A stretch of 38,899 bases of DNA from Candidatus Cloacimonadota bacterium. GTDB taxonomy: Bacteria; Cloacimonadota; Cloacimonadia; Cloacimonadales; PWNZ01. The position numbers and the translations under genes were made by a program. Positions 19,639 through 30,442 of this stretch are shown here, in pieces; the first letter of the stretch is position 1, and the number at the start of each line of letters is the position of its first letter. The stretch lies in the NCBI GenBank assembly GCA_003564135.1, contig PWNZ01000228.1:1-38899 (forward strand), read 5' to 3'. Below the pieces are notes generated by a model. It was not told where the DNA came from. It did not search any database and worked only from the letters and a program-made list of their open reading frames with translations.

Positions 19639-20535
19639 TTGAAATACTACGGTAGAGATCGAGACATCCAGTATAAAGTCGGCTTCATGACCTTGCTGAC
19701 GATTATAATTCTCTTCCTTGGCTATAGCTGGCTTAGAGATTGGTTTGGCAGTGGTACTACTGAGGTGTCTGTTAGGTTCACTCATGCCGGAAATATCGAG
19801 ATAGGTGATCCTGTCTCCGTTTATGGAGTTAAAAGAGGCAGGGTAGATGATGTTTTAATAACTAAACAAGGGGTAATCCTCACTCTTTTAGTGGAAATTG
19901 ATTTTCCCCTGAGCGTAGATACGGAATTCTATATCAGTGACTCTAATTTGATGGGCAGCAGGCAAGTTGATATTATTCCCGGCAGCACTGAAAAATTCAT
20001 AACTTCTGAGTTTGTCGCCGAGGGAGAGAGTATGGGAAGTCTAGCTTCATTAGTTCCCAAGATAGACGCCGTAATAAACGAGATAAGTTCGCTGACTGAA
20101 TTGTTTTCTCGCGAAGAAGGATTGGGAGACAACTTACTGGAAAGTATACAAGCTCTGAATAACATAGCTGTTAGGATCGATTCATTTTTAGAAGACTCCG
20201 AGGCAGGGCTGACCGAAGCTGTCAGTAATATAAACACATTAGCAGCAACAACTAATGAGCTTTTCAGGCATAATAAAGAGAACATTGAACAAGTATTAAT
20301 TACTGCCGATACCAGTATGAAGAAGTTTGAAGAATCTCTTAACTATATTGATAGCTTGCTGAACGACTTGGCGCCGATTTCTAAGGCGATGTCCACTGAT
20401 GAAGGCACTCTAAAAAGGCTTATAAGTGATGAAGAACTCTATTTAAAGTTGCTAAAAACAACAGAGCAGGTCGATTCACTACTAACAGATATCCAAGATA
20501 ATCCGAGAAGATACTTTAAATTCAGCATTTTTTAG
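19639..20535 (+). CDS. MlaD/MCE-domain lipid transport protein
   Basis: A 298-residue protein with a TTG start preceded by AGGAGA. One transmembrane anchor (about residues 15-34) is followed by an MCE domain (about 38-118: VSVRFTHAGNIEIGDPV, VSVYGVKRGRV, DIIPGS) and a long helical/coiled-coil region to the end, which closes with NPRRYFKFSIF, a common ending in this family. MCE proteins form hexameric rings or tubes that carry lipids across the periplasm. The usual partners MlaE (permease) and MlaF (ATPase) are not adjacent. The next gene, 53 bases on, encodes an Omp85-type outer membrane protein. Confidence 0.88.
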   Translation: MKYYGRDRDIQYKVGFMTLLTIIILFLGYSWLRDWFGSGTTEVSVRFTHAGNIEIGDPVSVYGVKRGRVDDVLITKQGVILTLLVEIDFPLSVDTEFYISDSNLMGSRQVDIIPGSTEKFITSEFVAEGESMGSLASLVPKIDAVINEISSLTELFSREEGLGDNLLESIQALNNIAVRIDSFLEDSEAGLTEAVSNINTLAATTNELFRHNKENIEQVLITADTSMKKFEESLNYIDSLLNDLAPISKAMSTDEGTLKRLISDEELYLKLLKTTEQVDSLLTDIQDNPRRYFKFSIF

Positions 20536-20588: not shown

Positions 20589-23576
20589 ATGAACTATAAA
20601 AAAATATATACATTAGTTTTAGTAGGCATTGTCTTGTTCTCATCCTTAACTTTATATGCCAAATTCGGTAAGAACAAAGTGCAGGTTGACAAGATAGATT
20701 GGGCGGTAATTGAAACACTACACTTTGATATCTACTACCCCAAAGGTGCCGATGAATTTGCCAAAAAACTGGCCTTGATGTCCGAAGAGGCTTACTATTT
20801 CTTACAAGATGCTTTTCAGGTTCCAATGTACGAAAGAGTCCCCTTGATATTTTATGAATCACACCGGGAGTTTCAGGTAACAAATATCATCTATCCGTTG
20901 CTAACCGAAGGCGTAGGAGGTTTCACCGAGTCCTTGAGGAACAGAATTGCCATACCTTACGACGGAAGTTACAAAAAGCTGGAAGAGACATTAATCCATG
21001 AACTAACACATGCTTATGTAAACCAAATCAAAAGTGACATGCAGTCAGCGATGTTTTTTAATGTTCAACGGATGCCTTTTCCATTTTGGTTTAACGAGGG
21101 TCTTCCTGAGTATTTTGCGATAGGTGGTGACGATAATTATAACAATATGTTTGTTATGGATATGGTCTTGAATTCCAACTTGAGACCTTTAGAACGTGTT
21201 GGAGGCTATGTCGCATACAGGCAGGGCGAGTCATTTTTGACCTATATTGATGAAGAATATGGCAACGAAGCAGTAATGCAGCTTTTCTATGCAGCTAAAA
21301 CCTCAGGGAGCATGGATTCTGCTTCACAGAAAGTTTTCGGAATGAATTTCGAAGATATTCAAAAACGGTGGAAAAACTATCTATTACGGAAATATACACC
21401 CTATCTCAACTCTCATAATATACCATACGAAACCTTCGAAAAGAGAACCGACCACGAAAGACAGGGATCATTTTACAATTACGGACCCAGTTTTTCACCC
21501 GACGGCAGCAGATACTTGTATTTCTCTAACAGAGATCAACGTACTAGTATTTGGAGGGCTTTGACTATTGATATCTTCGAGGATGAGCTAATTCTCAAAG
21601 GAGAGACTAAAGGTAGGTTTGAACAGTTCCATTTCCTGCGCAGCAATATCAGTTGGTTTCCCGACAGTAGACATTTTGCCTTTGTGGCTAAAACTGAGTC
21701 CGGGGATGTCCTCTATGTAATGGATGTAGAGACAAAAGAAATAACGGAGTCTATTGATATGTTCGATTTTGACGCTGTATATGAAATAGATATCTGTAGT
21801 GAAGGATCTAAAGTCGTCTTCTCCGGTCAGAAGGCAATGAATAATAACATTTATTACATGGATCTCGAAAGACGCGAAATTACCCAGTTGACTGATGATG
21901 CTTATTATGATCATCAACCAAGGTGGTCGAATGATAGATCAAAGATTGTCTTTACTTCGGAACGTGGTGAAAGAAAAGAAGCAAAGCATGAGCATATATT
22001 CAATAAACTGACAGATCAGGTCTTCTATTACGACTTAAAGCAAGAGGTTTTCTACCAAATAACTGACGATCAATTCAGCAATCATTCACCCTTTTGGAAC
22101 GGTCAAGATAGTATGATTCTATTCATATCTGAAGAGGATAAAATAGCCAATTTTCATGTTATAGATATAAAAAATAACACCCGCGCTAAAGTGACAAATA
22201 CTATCAATGGTGTCTTTAAGGGTGACATAAACTATGATGAAACCCTGCTGGTCTTTTCTGTTTTTTACGAGGATGGCTGGAATATATACATGCACCGTAA
22301 TCCTTTAAGTGAATTGGAGCATTATCCCTATCAAGAGCCGGAGGTTGTAGATTTACAAGATGACTTTTTCGAAAGATTCAGGCTTAACCGTTACCGTTAT
22401 TTTGGCAGAGATAAAGAACTGATATCAAACGATGATGATGATGAGAAAATTATCGAAAGGCATGATGCAGCGTTCTATCGTGTTAGGAAAAACAGTACGC
22501 TCCATCCTCGGCCTAACGAAATAAACGAGCCTCTTCTCAGACCCTATAAAGTCAGATTCTTCTTAGACCGCTTGTGGGGAGGGTTAGCATATTCTTCAAC
22601 CTACGGAACAATCGGCAGCCTGCATTTAGGCTTTAGCGATATGATGGGAGACCATACAATGGGGTTTCAATTAGGCATTACGGAAAACTTAAAAGATTCC
22701 GACTTTATATTCAGCTATCTTTATTTGCCACGCCGTATAGACCACGGATTTGGCTTCTTCTACCTTAACGATGACTATATCCGTTATTACCGAGATCTTG
22801 ATGTCTATATAAAGAGATTAGAAAGAGATGTAGGTGCATTTAGTTTGACTAGTTATCCACTCAACCGTTTTTGGCGGTTAGATTTTGAGAATGTTGCTTA
22901 TAACCGGAAACAAGACTACGAATATTGGAACAGTCACGACCAATATTGGGAAGAGCTGGACAGTATCAACCGATGGGTCTATTCACCGCAATTAAAACTA
23001 GTGCATGATAACATCCTCTATGGGCCTACGGGACCGATGACCGGCTGGCGAGGTATCACGGGACTCTCCTATGTTTTTGATGAAAAAAGCAATGATTTCT
23101 ATATAGCCCGAGCTGACCTTAGACATTACAAACTTTTCGCTAAGAAATATTCTTTTGCTACCAGATTGTTATTAGGCAGAACAAATGCTGAATCGGAATC
23201 CAATAGGTTAAGGATCGATGGTTATAATGGTATCAGAGGACTTACAGATTCATCGATCAGGGGTCAAAATCAGGCTGTGGCTACTATGGAGCTGAGATTT
23301 CCGTTTATTGACAGATTAGATATGCAGTTCCCCTTACCGATGACCATTGGTAATATTAGAGGAAGCCTATATACTGATGTAGGAACTGTATGGAACGAAC
23401 ATTCCAAATTCAGAGGCATGAAAGATGGGAAATTAAACGACATTTATCTTGGTATAGGCATGGGGCCCAGAATTAACCTCGGGTACTTCGTGCTTAAATT
23501 CGATACCACCTGGACTACCGATCTGAGTTCGTCCAGCAGACCGTCATTCTGGTGGAGCATAAATGAAGAGTTTTAG
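20589..23576 (+). CDS. Outer-membrane fusion: HExxH peptidase, beta-propeller, Omp85-type barrel
   Basis: A 995-residue protein with a signal peptide (cleavage near residue 24, LYAKF). Domain 1 (about 35-270) is a gluzincin peptidase MA-type domain with HELTH (His137, Glu138, His141) and the third ligand Glu170 in WFNEGLPEY. Domain 2 (about 285-590) is a TolB/PD40 beta-propeller with repeats such as GPSFSPDGSRYLYFSNRD and QPRWSNDRSKIVFTSERG. Domain 3 (about 650-995) is a surface-antigen/Omp85-type barrel, with YNGIRGL and the final strand ending in Phe. The natural reading is an outer-membrane barrel with a large domain assembly that processes or degrades proteins. AAGGA precedes the ATG. It follows the MCE gene by 53 bases. 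The substrate is unknown. Confidence 0.87.
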   Translation: MNYKKIYTLVLVGIVLFSSLTLYAKFGKNKVQVDKIDWAVIETLHFDIYYPKGADEFAKKLALMSEEAYYFLQDAFQVPMYERVPLIFYESHREFQVTNIIYPLLTEGVGGFTESLRNRIAIPYDGSYKKLEETLIHELTHAYVNQIKSDMQSAMFFNVQRMPFPFWFNEGLPEYFAIGGDDNYNNMFVMDMVLNSNLRPLERVGGYVAYRQGESFLTYIDEEYGNEAVMQLFYAAKTSGSMDSASQKVFGMNFEDIQKRWKNYLLRKYTPYLNSHNIPYETFEKRTDHERQGSFYNYGPSFSPDGSRYLYFSNRDQRTSIWRALTIDIFEDELILKGETKGRFEQFHFLRSNISWFPDSRHFAFVAKTESGDVLYVMDVETKEITESIDMFDFDAVYEIDICSEGSKVVFSGQKAMNNNIYYMDLERREITQLTDDAYYDHQPRWSNDRSKIVFTSERGERKEAKHEHIFNKLTDQVFYYDLKQEVFYQITDDQFSNHSPFWNGQDSMILFISEEDKIANFHVIDIKNNTRAKVTNTINGVFKGDINYDETLLVFSVFYEDGWNIYMHRNPLSELEHYPYQEPEVVDLQDDFFERFRLNRYRYFGRDKELISNDDDDEKIIERHDAAFYRVRKNSTLHPRPNEINEPLLRPYKVRFFLDRLWGGLAYSSTYGTIGSLHLGFSDMMGDHTMGFQLGITENLKDSDFIFSYLYLPRRIDHGFGFFYLNDDYIRYYRDLDVYIKRLERDVGAFSLTSYPLNRFWRLDFENVAYNRKQDYEYWNSHDQYWEELDSINRWVYSPQLKLVHDNILYGPTGPMTGWRGITGLSYVFDEKSNDFYIARADLRHYKLFAKKYSFATRLLLGRTNAESESNRLRIDGYNGIRGLTDSSIRGQNQAVATMELRFPFIDRLDMQFPLPMTIGNIRGSLYTDVGTVWNEHSKFRGMKDGKLNDIYLGIGMGPRINLGYFVLKFDTTWTTDLSSSSRPSFWWSINEEF

Positions 23577-25030: not shown

Positions 25031-25084
25031 TAACGCAAATAGTAGTTGTTTTTATTTGTTAACGCGAGTAAAAAAAGTAAATTA

Positions 25085-26659
25085 ATGAAAGATACTACAC
25101 GAAAAATCAGGTCACTCTTAAAAAAGGCCTACAAAGCATCACTCAAAGATTATTCTCAAGGCCTGTCATTTGTCAACCAAGCAGAGAGTTTGGCTTCGCA
25201 GTTGAAGCATCAGTCATTCAGCTTGGACTGCTTATCAATGAGAGCATTGATTTTAACTCGGACCAATAACGGCGATGAGTTTTTCAAGGCTAACAATTTA
25301 CTGATTGAGAAAAGCAAGCGCTGCAGTAGTTTTCTGCATCAAGCTAAAGCATTGACTAACCAAGGTCTGTTTTCTTGGAACCATGCCAGCTACAAACAGG
25401 CTTTAGAATGTTTTGAAGAAGCGGGAAAGCTGTTAAAAAAGTTTCGAGATCCTGAAGATATTGCCTTAAATTTTAGAAACATTGGTATATCTTGGTCTAA
25501 ACTGGGAGACAGTGATAAAGCGTTAAAGAACCTGCGTAGAGCGGTTATATGGGCAAAAAAAACTGATGACCGGAAGACGGAAGCGTCTGTACGCTACTGG
25601 TATGGCTACGTTTTACAGGCTGATTCCAGATTTCAATTAGCATTGAAGCATTTTTTGGTTGCTCTCGATATTTACAAGGATATAAAGGAAGCCCATGGAC
25701 AAGGTCTAACCTATAACAGCATCGGACTGATATATAGAGATACAGCAGCACAAAGACAAAAAGACTCTTTTAACAACTCCTTAGTGTATTTCAGAAAAGC
25801 TCTTCATTGTGCCGAAAAAACCTCTAATTACCGGCTGTTAGCCGATGTGTATAATAATATCGGGTTAGTATATCTCAAGAAAAAGAAATATGATCAAACT
25901 CTGCAGAACTATTTTTTGTCATTAAAGGTTAGGGTAATGTCTCCATTCAAGGAGAATGAAGCGATCACTTTGCAGAATATCGGCAACGTATATAAGATAA
26001 AAGGTGAGGATGATGCGGCATATAAATACTTCCGTCAAGCGTTAGATATCAGGCGTGATCTCGGTCAAAGATTCTATCTTATCAGTTCTTTGACATTGAT
26101 GCTCGAGTTTCTATCGGAGAAAAATATGCTTCAAGAAGCTGATCTGGTCTATGAGGAGATCAAGCAATTAGAGCCAAAAGTGAAAGATAAGTTCTCGAAA
26201 ATTACTATCAGAGAATCACTTTCAAAATATTTCGAAGCTAAAGGCGATTATAAGCAGGCTCTTATCCATTTCAAAAAAATGAGGTCACTTGAAGATGACT
26301 ACTATAATATCAAAACAGATAATCAGCTGAAAGAAATGGAGCTTAAACACAAAAGAAAAATAGTTCGCTTGAAACACGATAAAAAAATAGCTCGGGAAAA
26401 AGAGTATGCTGCAAAAGCTATGGCCGTAACTGTTAGCCACGAACTTAGCCAACCGGTGACGATCCTACAAGGTTATCTCGAGTTAATTATCATGCACAAT
26501 AGAAACTTTCTGGAAGACAATAAAAATAAGTACTATGTTGACAATATCAACATAGCTATGGCAAAGATTGACCTACTTCTTAAATCACTGAATCGCCAAA
26601 AACTTATTCGCTATGAACCCTACAGCCTAGATATTGATATGGTTACTTTGGAAAAATAG
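25085..26659 (+). CDS. TPR protein with a C-terminal histidine kinase DHp domain and no ATPase domain
   Basis: About 524 residues. Tetratricopeptide repeats fill about residues 10-400 (for example the NIGLVYLKKKKYDQTLQNYFLSL type). A highly charged coiled coil (about 405-445) leads into a HisKA/DHp phosphoacceptor domain with the H-box VSHELSQPVTILQGYLEL (His452). The protein ends at residue 524, with no N, G1 or G2 boxes, so it cannot phosphorylate itself through a normal HATPase domain. The frame downstream to 26902 has no such domain either. An in-frame TTG at 25046 exists; the ATG at 25085 is preferred, though neither has a strong ribosome site. It follows glmM closely. It may be a phosphotransfer or dimerisation scaffold. 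Confidence 0.82.
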   Translation: MKDTTRKIRSLLKKAYKASLKDYSQGLSFVNQAESLASQLKHQSFSLDCLSMRALILTRTNNGDEFFKANNLLIEKSKRCSSFLHQAKALTNQGLFSWNHASYKQALECFEEAGKLLKKFRDPEDIALNFRNIGISWSKLGDSDKALKNLRRAVIWAKKTDDRKTEASVRYWYGYVLQADSRFQLALKHFLVALDIYKDIKEAHGQGLTYNSIGLIYRDTAAQRQKDSFNNSLVYFRKALHCAEKTSNYRLLADVYNNIGLVYLKKKKYDQTLQNYFLSLKVRVMSPFKENEAITLQNIGNVYKIKGEDDAAYKYFRQALDIRRDLGQRFYLISSLTLMLEFLSEKNMLQEADLVYEEIKQLEPKVKDKFSKITIRESLSKYFEAKGDYKQALIHFKKMRSLEDDYYNIKTDNQLKEMELKHKRKIVRLKHDKKIAREKEYAAKAMAVTVSHELSQPVTILQGYLELIIMHNRNFLEDNKNKYYVDNINIAMAKIDLLLKSLNRQKLIRYEPYSLDIDMVTLEK

Positions 26660-26902: not shown

Positions 26903-29900
26903 ATGAGATTAAATAAGCAGAGATTGAATCAGATTTCAGCCTTTATATTGTTATCCGTCCTGACAGCTGTTCTCGGCGGGTCACTATTTGCAGCTTATAT
27001 AGAGGACTTACCGGTACAACTGGTGCAGCCTGATGGAGAGGTTATCGACTGTTATGCTACCGGAGATGAGTTCTTTAACTATGCGCATGATGAAAATGGT
27101 TTTACTATCATAGCCGGAGAAGACGGTTTTTATTATTATGGTGTAGAAAAAGATGGAGACGTAGTTGCTTCGGAATACCGTGTTGACACCGTTGACCCTG
27201 CCGCCGTAGGAATTGAACCGCGAGCGATGATTTCTGAGGAAGAATACCGTGCGAGACGGGCCGAGTTTGAAGTCCCTTTCGACAGGCAAGATACTCGGGC
27301 ACCGCATACCGGTGTAATGAACAATATAGTCGTATATATACGTTTCGCTGATGATACACCTTTTACTAGAAATATAAATCTCTATGATTCAAGGCTTAAT
27401 ACTGTAGAAGGCCAGTCGGTTAGAGACTATTTTATTGAGGTTTCGTACGACCAACTTGAGATAATCAGTCATCATTTCCCCGAACCTGATGAGTATAATG
27501 CTATCATGTCCTATCAGGATGAGATGCCTCGTGACCATTTCAGACCCTATCATGCTGTTAACAATCCGGAGGGATATAGAACCTCGCAAGAAAGACGATT
27601 ACGCGAACATTCTATGCTGGTTAGAGCCATTGAAGCTGTACGAGATGATATACCGGAAGATTTAGAAATCGATGCTGACGGCGATGGCAGGGTTGATAAT
27701 GTTTGTTTTATCATCAGAGGAAATGCTGATGCATGGGCTGACCTGTTGTGGGCACACCGTTGGGTGTTAAGGTCTTTTGAAGTAGATATTCATGGGAAAA
27801 GAGTCTGGGATTATACTTTTCAGCCCGAAAATCAGACAGGAATTTCGACTTTGGCCCATGAGATGTTCCATACATTAGGGGCGCCTGACTTATACAGATA
27901 CAGTCATGATGGCTTTACACCGGTTGGTAGATGGGATTTAATGGCTTCCGGATTTGTTCATATGGGAGCATGGATGAAGTACAAATATGCTGACAGAAAC
28001 TGGATAACCGATATACCTGAAATTATAAACTCCGGTGAATACTCTCTAAAACCCCTAACCTCACCGGAGAATAATGCTTTTATGATTCGTTCTCCCTATT
28101 CTAATAGAGAATTCTTCATCTTAGAGTATCGCCGAAGATTAGGAAGATACGAGTCTAGCGTTCCGGGCAGCGGACTTTTAGTATACAGAATTAACAGCTC
28201 GATAAACGGCAATGCCAGTGGCCCGCCAGATGAAGTTTATGTCTTCCGCCCCGGTGGTACTCCGACAACGAACGGCAATGTTAATATGGCTGCTTTTAGT
28301 GAGCAAGTAGGAAGGACAACCATAAATGATTTTGATACTGATCCTGCCAGTTTTTTAGCCAACGGAAATCCTGGCGGACTCGATATTTTTGACATAGGTG
28401 CCGCCGGAGATTCGATTACATTTTTCGTAGAGATGATAGGGGATCTGATAGCGCCAATAAAAGACAGGCCTATTGACGGCGCTACCGATGTACGTTTGAA
28501 TCCTACTTTGGAGTGGGGGTTCATTAATGTTGCAGATTATTATAGCTTGCAAGTGGCAACTGATACGGACTTTGATAACATAATTATTGATGAACCGATT
28601 ATTACCGAGACCGAATATAAGGTTAACCAACCCTTAGACGTCGAACAAACATACTACTGGAGATTAAATTCTTCCGATGACGAAGAAACCTCAGAATGGT
28701 CAGATCCTTGGCAGTTTACCATTTCTCACTTTTCTCCGCTTGCGATCGATATTTCAGGAGCTACCCATGGTGATATCGCATGGGCCGATTTGAATAACAA
28801 CGGCTTCCTTGATCTAGTTATGACAGGCGAATACAGAACGGTCATCTATGAGAATAAAGGGGATGGATCATTTGAACTTGTAGATATTCAACTACCACCC
28901 TTGAGCCGCTCGGCTTTATCATTAGGAGATATTAACAACAACGGATACTTGGATATTGCCTTAACGGGAAGAGGGCTCGATAATGAGCCTGAAGCATATA
29001 TCTGCATCAATGGTGGAGAATTTAGCTTTGCATTTATGGATGCCGGTCTGCAAGGTGTCATGAATGGGAGTATCGAGTTCGGCGATTATAATAGAAATGG
29101 CCTATTAGACCTGATTTTAGTGGGCGCTGCCGCTGATGATCAAGTAACTATGCTGTTCGAGAATACAGGAGATAACAACTTCAATCTTGTCGAAACACCA
29201 CAAATTCCCGGCTATAGATTTGCCGATGTTGCTTGGGGTGACTTTAATAATAACGGAAGGTTAGACCTTATTATCTCCGGTACATCAACCGATGGCCCCA
29301 AAACAGAAATATACTATCAAAGTGTAGATGGCAGCTTTATAGCCGGGGACTTAGGATTTATGAAAATTACCGGGAGCTCAATAAGTGTTACCGATTTCAA
29401 TAAAAACGGATATTTAGATTTTGCCGTATCGGGAAACTCATTGTCAGGTTCCGTGACCAAGATCTATCGTAACAATGGCGATGGAACATTCACCGATATT
29501 GAAGTAGATATGCCGGGTATTGCCTTAGGCGCTATCAAGTGGGGAGATCTGGATTTTAATGGATATCCCGATCTGCTTCTTACCGGATCAAATATGGCGC
29601 TTATTTTTAGAAATAATGGCGATGAAACTTTCACAGAAGTAGTTTCCGGACTCAATAATACCAGCTTCAGCGCCGTTTCATGGGGAGATATGGATAATGA
29701 CGGAGACTCAGATATAGCGTTGATCGGATCCGCTAGCGGGGGAGCAGCTTTACATATTTACCAAAACAATCTTGGCGAGAGTGAATTTAGAGCTAATACC
29801 TCTCCCTCGACACCTCAGAACTCTTATGCTTTCGTAAATCAATGTTCAGTTACTTTGACTTGGGATGAAGCTGAAGACCAAGAGACTCCTAATCAAGGGA

Positions 29901-30442
29901 TTACCTATAATATTAGTATTGGAACCGAACCCGGAAAAGAAGATTTCTGGTCGTCTATGTCACATTTAGACTCGGGTAAAAGGAAGATACCTGCTGCAGG
30001 AAATGTTGGATCAATAAACGAACTAAATCTCTTCTCAGTTCCTATAGGTATTTACCATTGGCGAGTTCAGGCTGTTGATGGGATGTTTGCCGGATCAGAA
30101 TTTACTGCGGAAGGTACATTTAATGTAGATACCGTCTCAGCTGAAAAAGAAACATGTGAACCTAAACTGACAACCCTAAACAAAAACTATCCCAATCCCT
30201 TTAACCCCGACACAAATATCAGTTTCACTATAGCGAGTGAGGAGCATGTTAACCTGTCTGTATACAATATACTGGGGCAGAAAGTTAATACCTTAGTTGA
30301 TGAAAAACTCAAAGCCGGTGATTATACAATAACTTGGACACCTGCTCAAAAAGATGGTACATCGTTAAGCAGTGGGGTATATCTGTACAGAATGGAAACA
30401 GATAGCTTCTCCGCATTAGAAAAAATGCTGTTTCTAAAATAG
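26903..30442 (+). CDS. Secreted M6-type metalloprotease with VCBS repeats and T9SS-type sorting domain
   Basis: An 1179-residue secreted protein with a signal peptide (cleavage near LFAAYIE). An N-terminal propeptide-like region precedes an M6-type catalytic domain with HEMFHTLGAPD (His319, Glu320, His323, Asp329), the HExxHxxGxxD metal site. After it come an FN3-like domain (about 515-605), a long set of FG-GAP/VCBS repeats (about 610-965, with D-x-N-x-N-G-x-x-D calcium-loop motifs), a second FN3-like domain (about 975-1080), and a C-terminal domain starting NYPNPFNPDTNISF and ending LEKMLFLK, as in type A T9SS sorting signals. An extracellular or surface-anchored protein-degrading role is inferred. 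GGAGGAA precedes the ATG. Confidence 0.92.
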   Translation: MRLNKQRLNQISAFILLSVLTAVLGGSLFAAYIEDLPVQLVQPDGEVIDCYATGDEFFNYAHDENGFTIIAGEDGFYYYGVEKDGDVVASEYRVDTVDPAAVGIEPRAMISEEEYRARRAEFEVPFDRQDTRAPHTGVMNNIVVYIRFADDTPFTRNINLYDSRLNTVEGQSVRDYFIEVSYDQLEIISHHFPEPDEYNAIMSYQDEMPRDHFRPYHAVNNPEGYRTSQERRLREHSMLVRAIEAVRDDIPEDLEIDADGDGRVDNVCFIIRGNADAWADLLWAHRWVLRSFEVDIHGKRVWDYTFQPENQTGISTLAHEMFHTLGAPDLYRYSHDGFTPVGRWDLMASGFVHMGAWMKYKYADRNWITDIPEIINSGEYSLKPLTSPENNAFMIRSPYSNREFFILEYRRRLGRYESSVPGSGLLVYRINSSINGNASGPPDEVYVFRPGGTPTTNGNVNMAAFSEQVGRTTINDFDTDPASFLANGNPGGLDIFDIGAAGDSITFFVEMIGDLIAPIKDRPIDGATDVRLNPTLEWGFINVADYYSLQVATDTDFDNIIIDEPIITETEYKVNQPLDVEQTYYWRLNSSDDEETSEWSDPWQFTISHFSPLAIDISGATHGDIAWADLNNNGFLDLVMTGEYRTVIYENKGDGSFELVDIQLPPLSRSALSLGDINNNGYLDIALTGRGLDNEPEAYICINGGEFSFAFMDAGLQGVMNGSIEFGDYNRNGLLDLILVGAAADDQVTMLFENTGDNNFNLVETPQIPGYRFADVAWGDFNNNGRLDLIISGTSTDGPKTEIYYQSVDGSFIAGDLGFMKITGSSISVTDFNKNGYLDFAVSGNSLSGSVTKIYRNNGDGTFTDIEVDMPGIALGAIKWGDLDFNGYPDLLLTGSNMALIFRNNGDETFTEVVSGLNNTSFSAVSWGDMDNDGDSDIALIGSASGGAALHIYQNNLGESEFRANTSPSTPQNSYAFVNQCSVTLTWDEAEDQETPNQGITYNISIGTEPGKEDFWSSMSHLDSGKRKIPAAGNVGSINELNLFSVPIGIYHWRVQAVDGMFAGSEFTAEGTFNVDTVSAEKETCEPKLTTLNKNYPNPFNPDTNISFTIASEEHVNLSVYNILGQKVNTLVDEKLKAGDYTITWTPAQKDGTSLSSGVYLYRMETDSFSALEKMLFLK

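Follow-up and report, generated by a model that had tools for sequence, protein, structure and literature searches.

A single gene in a stretch of 38,899 nucleotides from a Candidatus Cloacimonadota bacterium (the whole of the analysed stretch is called the window below) encodes a signal peptide, a metallopeptidase, a PD40 propeller and an Omp85-type barrel in one chain. In Cloacimonadota, this protein is tentatively read here as the zinc-peptidase Omp85 outer-membrane end of an MlaF–MlaE–MlaD (MCE) lipid transporter. The domain assignments themselves, taken separately from any MCE-coupled function, are highly probable, and the combined conservation of domains and residues in the protein is far above chance. 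The features of the gene and of the MlaD gene that precedes it are listed in Table 1.

Table 1. Positions, in the window, of the features of the focal gene and of the adjoining MlaD gene
Feature	Position	Strand	Details
MlaD (MCE) protein, directly upstream; putative partner	19639..20535	+	298 aa; PF02470 43 bits, cut-off 25.1
MlaD C-terminal strand NPRRYFKFSIF; beta-signal-like, putative docking element	20500..20532	+	conserved in linked MlaD
Focal gene: signal peptide, metallopeptidase, PD40 propeller, Omp85 barrel	20589..23576	+	995 aa, ATG start
Sec-type signal peptide, aa 1–24	20589..20660	+	by-eye reading, ends LYA/KFGKNK
Peptidase_MA_2 (PF13485), aa 82–265	20832..21383	+	Pfam 45.2 bits, cut-off 32.4
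HExxH, His137-Glu138-x-x-His141	20997..21011	+	45/45 in order, 90/91 overall
Glu170, expected third zinc ligand	21096..21098	+	45/45 in order, 91/91 overall
TolB-like PD40 propeller, ~aa 286–590	21444..22358	+	Pfam PD40 49.8 bits, cut-off 20.9
Omp85-type barrel region, ~aa 641–995	22509..23573	+	PF01103 aa 716–977, 34.7 bits, cut-off 24
GIRGL, Omp85 loop-6 (V/I)RG(Y/F) motif, Arg883	23229..23243	+	Arg 88/91
GMGPR, C-terminal GxGxR motif of Omp85 barrels, aa 957–961	23457..23471	+	Gly957 90/91, Arg961 88/91

Domain architecture

The sequence AAGGAAG is located 5′ of the start of the open reading frame, and the signal peptide is followed by the signature FGKNKVQ, which is kept across phyla. The initial annotation had read an HExxH peptidase, a propeller and an Omp85-type barrel in one polypeptide and had suggested a search with the corresponding models; Peptidase_MA_2, PD40 and Omp85 were all found, each above the Pfam gathering score used as the cut-off, and the reading was borne out. 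The top match of the propeller is TolB, both in NCBIfam and in the PDB. The linker between propeller and barrel (aa 591–640) is short and variable, with frequent gaps in the alignment. When 25 homologues were scanned individually, PD40 and Peptidase_MA_2 were found in all of them and Omp85 in 16 (E 0.01); POTRA models matched none of the 25. The proposal that the place of the POTRA domains is taken by a peptidase and a propeller, behind a single signal peptide, agrees with this result. AlphaFold2 models built from a three-sequence input had a mean pLDDT of 37 for the full protein and 39 for the peptidase domain.

The four residues that had been named as a gluzincin site (His137, Glu138, His141 and Glu170) proved to be the right ones: all 45 Cloacimonadota sequences have them, and among 91 aligned sequences, of which 80 come from other orders or phyla, the first three are each present in 90 and Glu170 in all 91. 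An HExxH motif with a conserved downstream glutamate is the mark of peptidase clan MA (gluzincin), and it is present here together with a PF13485 match above the cut-off. Since the catalytic residues are kept across phyla, the sequences support the prediction of an active peptidase. A profile search of the PDB with the peptidase part gave no significant match.

Barrel and Omp85 motifs

The loop-6 motif of the barrel, GIRGL in the window, is GVRGY or GVRGF in the relatives. The terminal Phe, which the initial annotation had noted, is the same throughout the order; overall, this position is occupied by F, Y, W or L in 89 of the 91 sequences. A profile built from the last 356 residues aligned over 277 columns with three Omp85 proteins that the same genome encodes (96.6% probability, E 5e-10), and the Omp85 motifs fell on one another. 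The protein therefore has the barrel profile, the loop-6 motif and the C-terminal GxGxR by which the Omp85 superfamily is recognised. A degenerate, divergent barrel that has no Omp85 insertase or gate role and merely anchors the peptidase in the outer membrane would be in keeping with the modest Pfam Omp85 score, with the 16 matches among 25 members and with a PDB profile search in which the barrel part found no significant match. However, the loop-6 arginine and GxGxR are kept in 88 of 91 sequences and align with the motifs of other Omp85 proteins, which makes such a barrel improbable.

Distribution and relation to known Omp85 proteins

Homologues with 63% and 41% identity were found in two Cloacimonadota MAGs, and 78 of the 79 genomes of the same order contain a relative, mostly of full length. 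Some match to the profile was present in 332 of 387 genomes; the weak matches among these are probably propeller-only. Outside the phylum, which here means genomes sharing only the domain-level label with the source of the window, 64 genomes have a match with E ~1e-100 or better in ORFs that are nearly all 930–1250 aa long, and several of these genomes carry two copies. The family is therefore widespread, and the order peptidase–propeller–barrel, which the survey traced well beyond one phylum, is not peculiar to the window. No relative of the protein was found in viral contigs.

A WD40-Omp85 subfamily lacking POTRA was named in 2014 by Heinz and Lithgow, who likened it to a fusion of BamA and BamB (PMC4104836). 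As described there, this subfamily shares with the focal protein the Omp85 barrel, the TolB-like propeller N-terminal to it and the absence of POTRA; a peptidase domain, which the focal protein has, is not mentioned in that main text. Set beside this description, the focal family likely belongs to the WD40-Omp85 subfamily. According to PMC11116518, Omp85 subfamilies without POTRA are largely uncharacterised. The propeller–Omp85 architecture is thus already known, while the MlaD/MCE gene context appears to be new: in the open-access literature, to which the search was confined, no paper tying the architecture to MCE transport was found.

Gene neighbourhood

Among the 39 relatives of the order whose loci include at least 0.8 kb of upstream sequence, 36 have the MlaD gene immediately before the focal gene and on the same strand. 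MlaD was also the sole neighbour in the window that was regularly conserved when 20 relatives were compared; GlmM and MnmG were rejected as functional neighbours, being not conserved in the relatives. In at least 18 relatives of the order, MlaD is itself immediately preceded by an MlaF-type ABC ATPase, and the arrangement MlaF–MCE–focal gene recurs in six of eight genomes of a further family within the class. Outside the class, MlaE–MlaF is found directly downstream of the gene in two of about 70 loci (G402 in L129 and G234 in L166), which belong to separate subclades of the family tree. A rough estimate, assuming a few MlaE per ~3500 genes, gives an expectation well below one such adjacency in 70 loci. 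Most distant loci of the family do not adjoin Mla genes, and the linkage is not general outside the class. A downstream ABC triad found in one clade was rejected as MlaFE, since it is a ZnuA–ZnuC–ZnuB zinc importer. The initial annotation had envisaged an outer-membrane machine that perhaps inserts or secretes substrates and had proposed a survey of neighbours; in this survey the Cloacimonadota gene almost always adjoins MlaD, and its neighbourhood is suggestive of a lipid transporter of the MCE (Mla) type rather than of secretion.

The likeness to the Mla system (MlaFEDB, MlaC, MlaA) lies in the linked MlaD and MlaF, and in MlaE in the two distant genomes. The numbers of MlaD and MlaE were equal in all 13 genomes in which they were counted, whereas MlaA (PF04333) and MlaC (PF05494), which are part of the canonical set, were each found in none of 14 genomes. 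The genome from which the window comes has one MlaE, on contig C207, with no MlaD nearby; it is plausible that this is the unlinked partner of the MlaD in the window.

The association with MCE genes is not obligate, as 9 of 45 carriers lack MCE genes altogether. In G022, and in G088 and G094, which are sisters of each other, MtaB and the focal gene have no MlaF–MlaD between them (loci L055, L163 and L204); in all, two lineages have lost MlaF–MlaD while keeping the focal gene. The family must therefore have a function that is independent of MlaD.

Several other genes were noted. In G007, MlaD and the focal homologue lie head-to-head with a divergent 977-aa paralogue (L053:10405–13335, minus strand; 22% identity over the peptidase part). 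A 612-aa protein (cluster c1), which by eye looks like a metallophosphoesterase, is encoded by the gene immediately following the focal homologue in six to seven distant loci, including L129. Within the window, positions 25046–26659 encode a 537-aa TPR protein with a sub-threshold C-terminal HisKA match and no match to an ATPase domain, possibly a truncated or unusual sensor kinase. The ORF at 26903–30442 encodes an M6-type metalloprotease of 1179 aa that carries FG-GAP repeats and has an above-cut-off match to a type IX secretion sorting domain, suggesting a T9SS cargo protein in Cloacimonadota. On contig C240 of the same genome (L065:5034–11034), a 628-aa Omp85 gene is followed directly, on the same strand, by a 1370-aa ORF; the two are possibly a TamA–TamB pair.

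The C-terminal strand of MlaD

In linked MlaD proteins, the C-terminus is formed by a conserved strand, NPxxYxxxxF, which the other MlaD paralogues in the same genomes of the order lack, and this tail is near-invariant in a cross-phyla alignment. In G009 and G020, MlaD is not adjacent to the focal gene, yet a tail-bearing MlaD is encoded elsewhere (L092 and L096). Outside the order, a tail-bearing MlaD was found in 25 of 36 MCE-containing carriers versus 7 of 72 genomes with a weak focal match or none (Fisher odds ratio 21, p 3e-10); as this test ignores phylogeny, uses an approximate regular expression and compares groups drawn from different searches, the association is a lead and not proof. 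The tail was rejected as an exclusive marker of the focal protein, because it also occurs in at least seven genomes that lack a convincing homologue. According to PMC10665443, such MlaD tails may instead build a six-stranded mini-barrel. Veillonella MlaD has a barrel of its own (PMC10665443), unlike the system considered here, in which the barrel belongs to a separate Omp85 protein outside MlaD.

Proposed function and alternatives

If the Cloacimonadota protein is indeed the outer-membrane end of an MCE transporter, the periplasmic part of this Omp85-superfamily protein would consist of the zinc metallopeptidase and the TolB-like propeller, which replace POTRA. Lipid would be loaded by the ABC pump (MlaFE) into inner-membrane-anchored MlaD, the C-terminal strand of which, NPxxYxxxxF, would dock at the lateral seam of the barrel, and the docked MlaD would let lipid reach the outer membrane. 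Recognition of a partner at the seam, for instance an MlaD tail left unpaired or an outer-membrane protein that has stalled, would fall to the peptidase and propeller, as would clipping or clearing it. This role of proteolysis is inferred, as are the membrane location, zinc activity, docking and lipid transport.

The precedent for such docking is the TamA–TamB hybrid barrel (PMC12800296), where a lipid conduit anchored in the inner membrane contributes its last strand, which pairs with the first one of an Omp85 barrel. TamA has POTRA and no peptidase, whereas the reverse is true of the focal protein, and the partner of TamA is of the AsmA type, whereas an MCE protein is proposed to partner the focal barrel. 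Besides this precedent, the MCE reading draws on the three domains above their cut-offs, with catalytic and Omp85 motifs kept across phyla; on MlaD being retained upstream when the other window neighbours are not, with MlaF before it in part of the order and in a second family of the class; on the MlaE–MlaF pairs in separate subclades; on the matching MlaD and MlaE counts in 13 genomes; on the absence of MlaA and MlaC from 14 genomes; and on a tail that, within the order, is limited to the linked type of MlaD and, outside it, is enriched among carriers. Against it stand the genomes that keep the gene without MlaF–MlaD or without any MCE gene, the distant loci away from Mla genes, the tails in genomes without a convincing homologue and their possible mini-barrel role, and an association test that ignores phylogeny. 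Extended to MlaA-less bacteria at large, with a focal-type protein as the MCE receptor, an MlaD strand completing a TamA–TamB-like hybrid barrel and the protease controlling the junction, the proposal is rather unlikely.

The protein may alternatively act in stand-alone outer-membrane quality control, where the barrel would provide a docking site, the propeller a BamB-like platform for substrates and the peptidase a BepA-like means of clipping or removing misfolded outer-membrane proteins; the MlaD linkage in one class would then reflect general envelope biogenesis or later recruitment. BepA, a periplasmic Zn-metallopeptidase at the BAM complex (PMC8423444), is by its description likewise a metallopeptidase at an Omp85 machine, but it is a separate soluble protein, whereas the focal peptidase and barrel form one chain. 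Survival of the gene after the loss of MlaF–MlaD, its presence in carriers without MCE genes and the conservation of catalytic residues across phyla are consistent with quality control, as are the Omp85 and TolB-like parts, which suggest protein handling, and the comparison of WD40-Omp85 with a BamA–BamB fusion by Heinz and Lithgow (PMC4104836). Quality control leaves unexplained why MlaD alone is kept adjacent throughout the order and class and why MlaE–MlaF adjoins the gene in two distant lineages. The family has an MlaD-independent function, and this explanation is nearly as likely as the MCE reading. It is also possible that the two are combined, with a general function later recruited to MCE transport in the Cloacimonadota class.

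A third explanation, type V-like surface delivery, in which the barrel exports its own peptidase–propeller domain to act outside the cell, is very improbable. It follows the export of the patatin domain first proposed for PlpD, as described in PMC4104836, but the enzyme domain of PlpD was later assigned to the periplasm with a lipid phenotype (PMC11116518), and the MlaD linkage lends surface delivery no support. PlpD resembles the focal protein in having an enzyme domain fused to an Omp85 barrel and is tied to outer-membrane lipid balance, its deletion shifting phospholipid levels (PMC11116518); it differs in combining a patatin phospholipase with POTRA, where the focal protein has a metallopeptidase and a propeller.

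Significance

Among diderm bacteria, MlaD, MlaE and MlaF are widespread, whereas MlaA and MlaC occur largely in proteobacteria, and the barrel borne by MlaD itself has been reported missing from the FCB and PVC groups (PMC10665443). The focal protein addresses the question of how lipids enter or leave the outer membrane in such lineages: an MlaD-linked Omp85 protein that is near-universal and mostly single-copy in Cloacimonadota is a concrete, testable candidate for the outer-membrane end. Independently of this role, a metallopeptidase–Omp85 fusion conserved across many bacterial families would place proteolysis within an outer-membrane machine.
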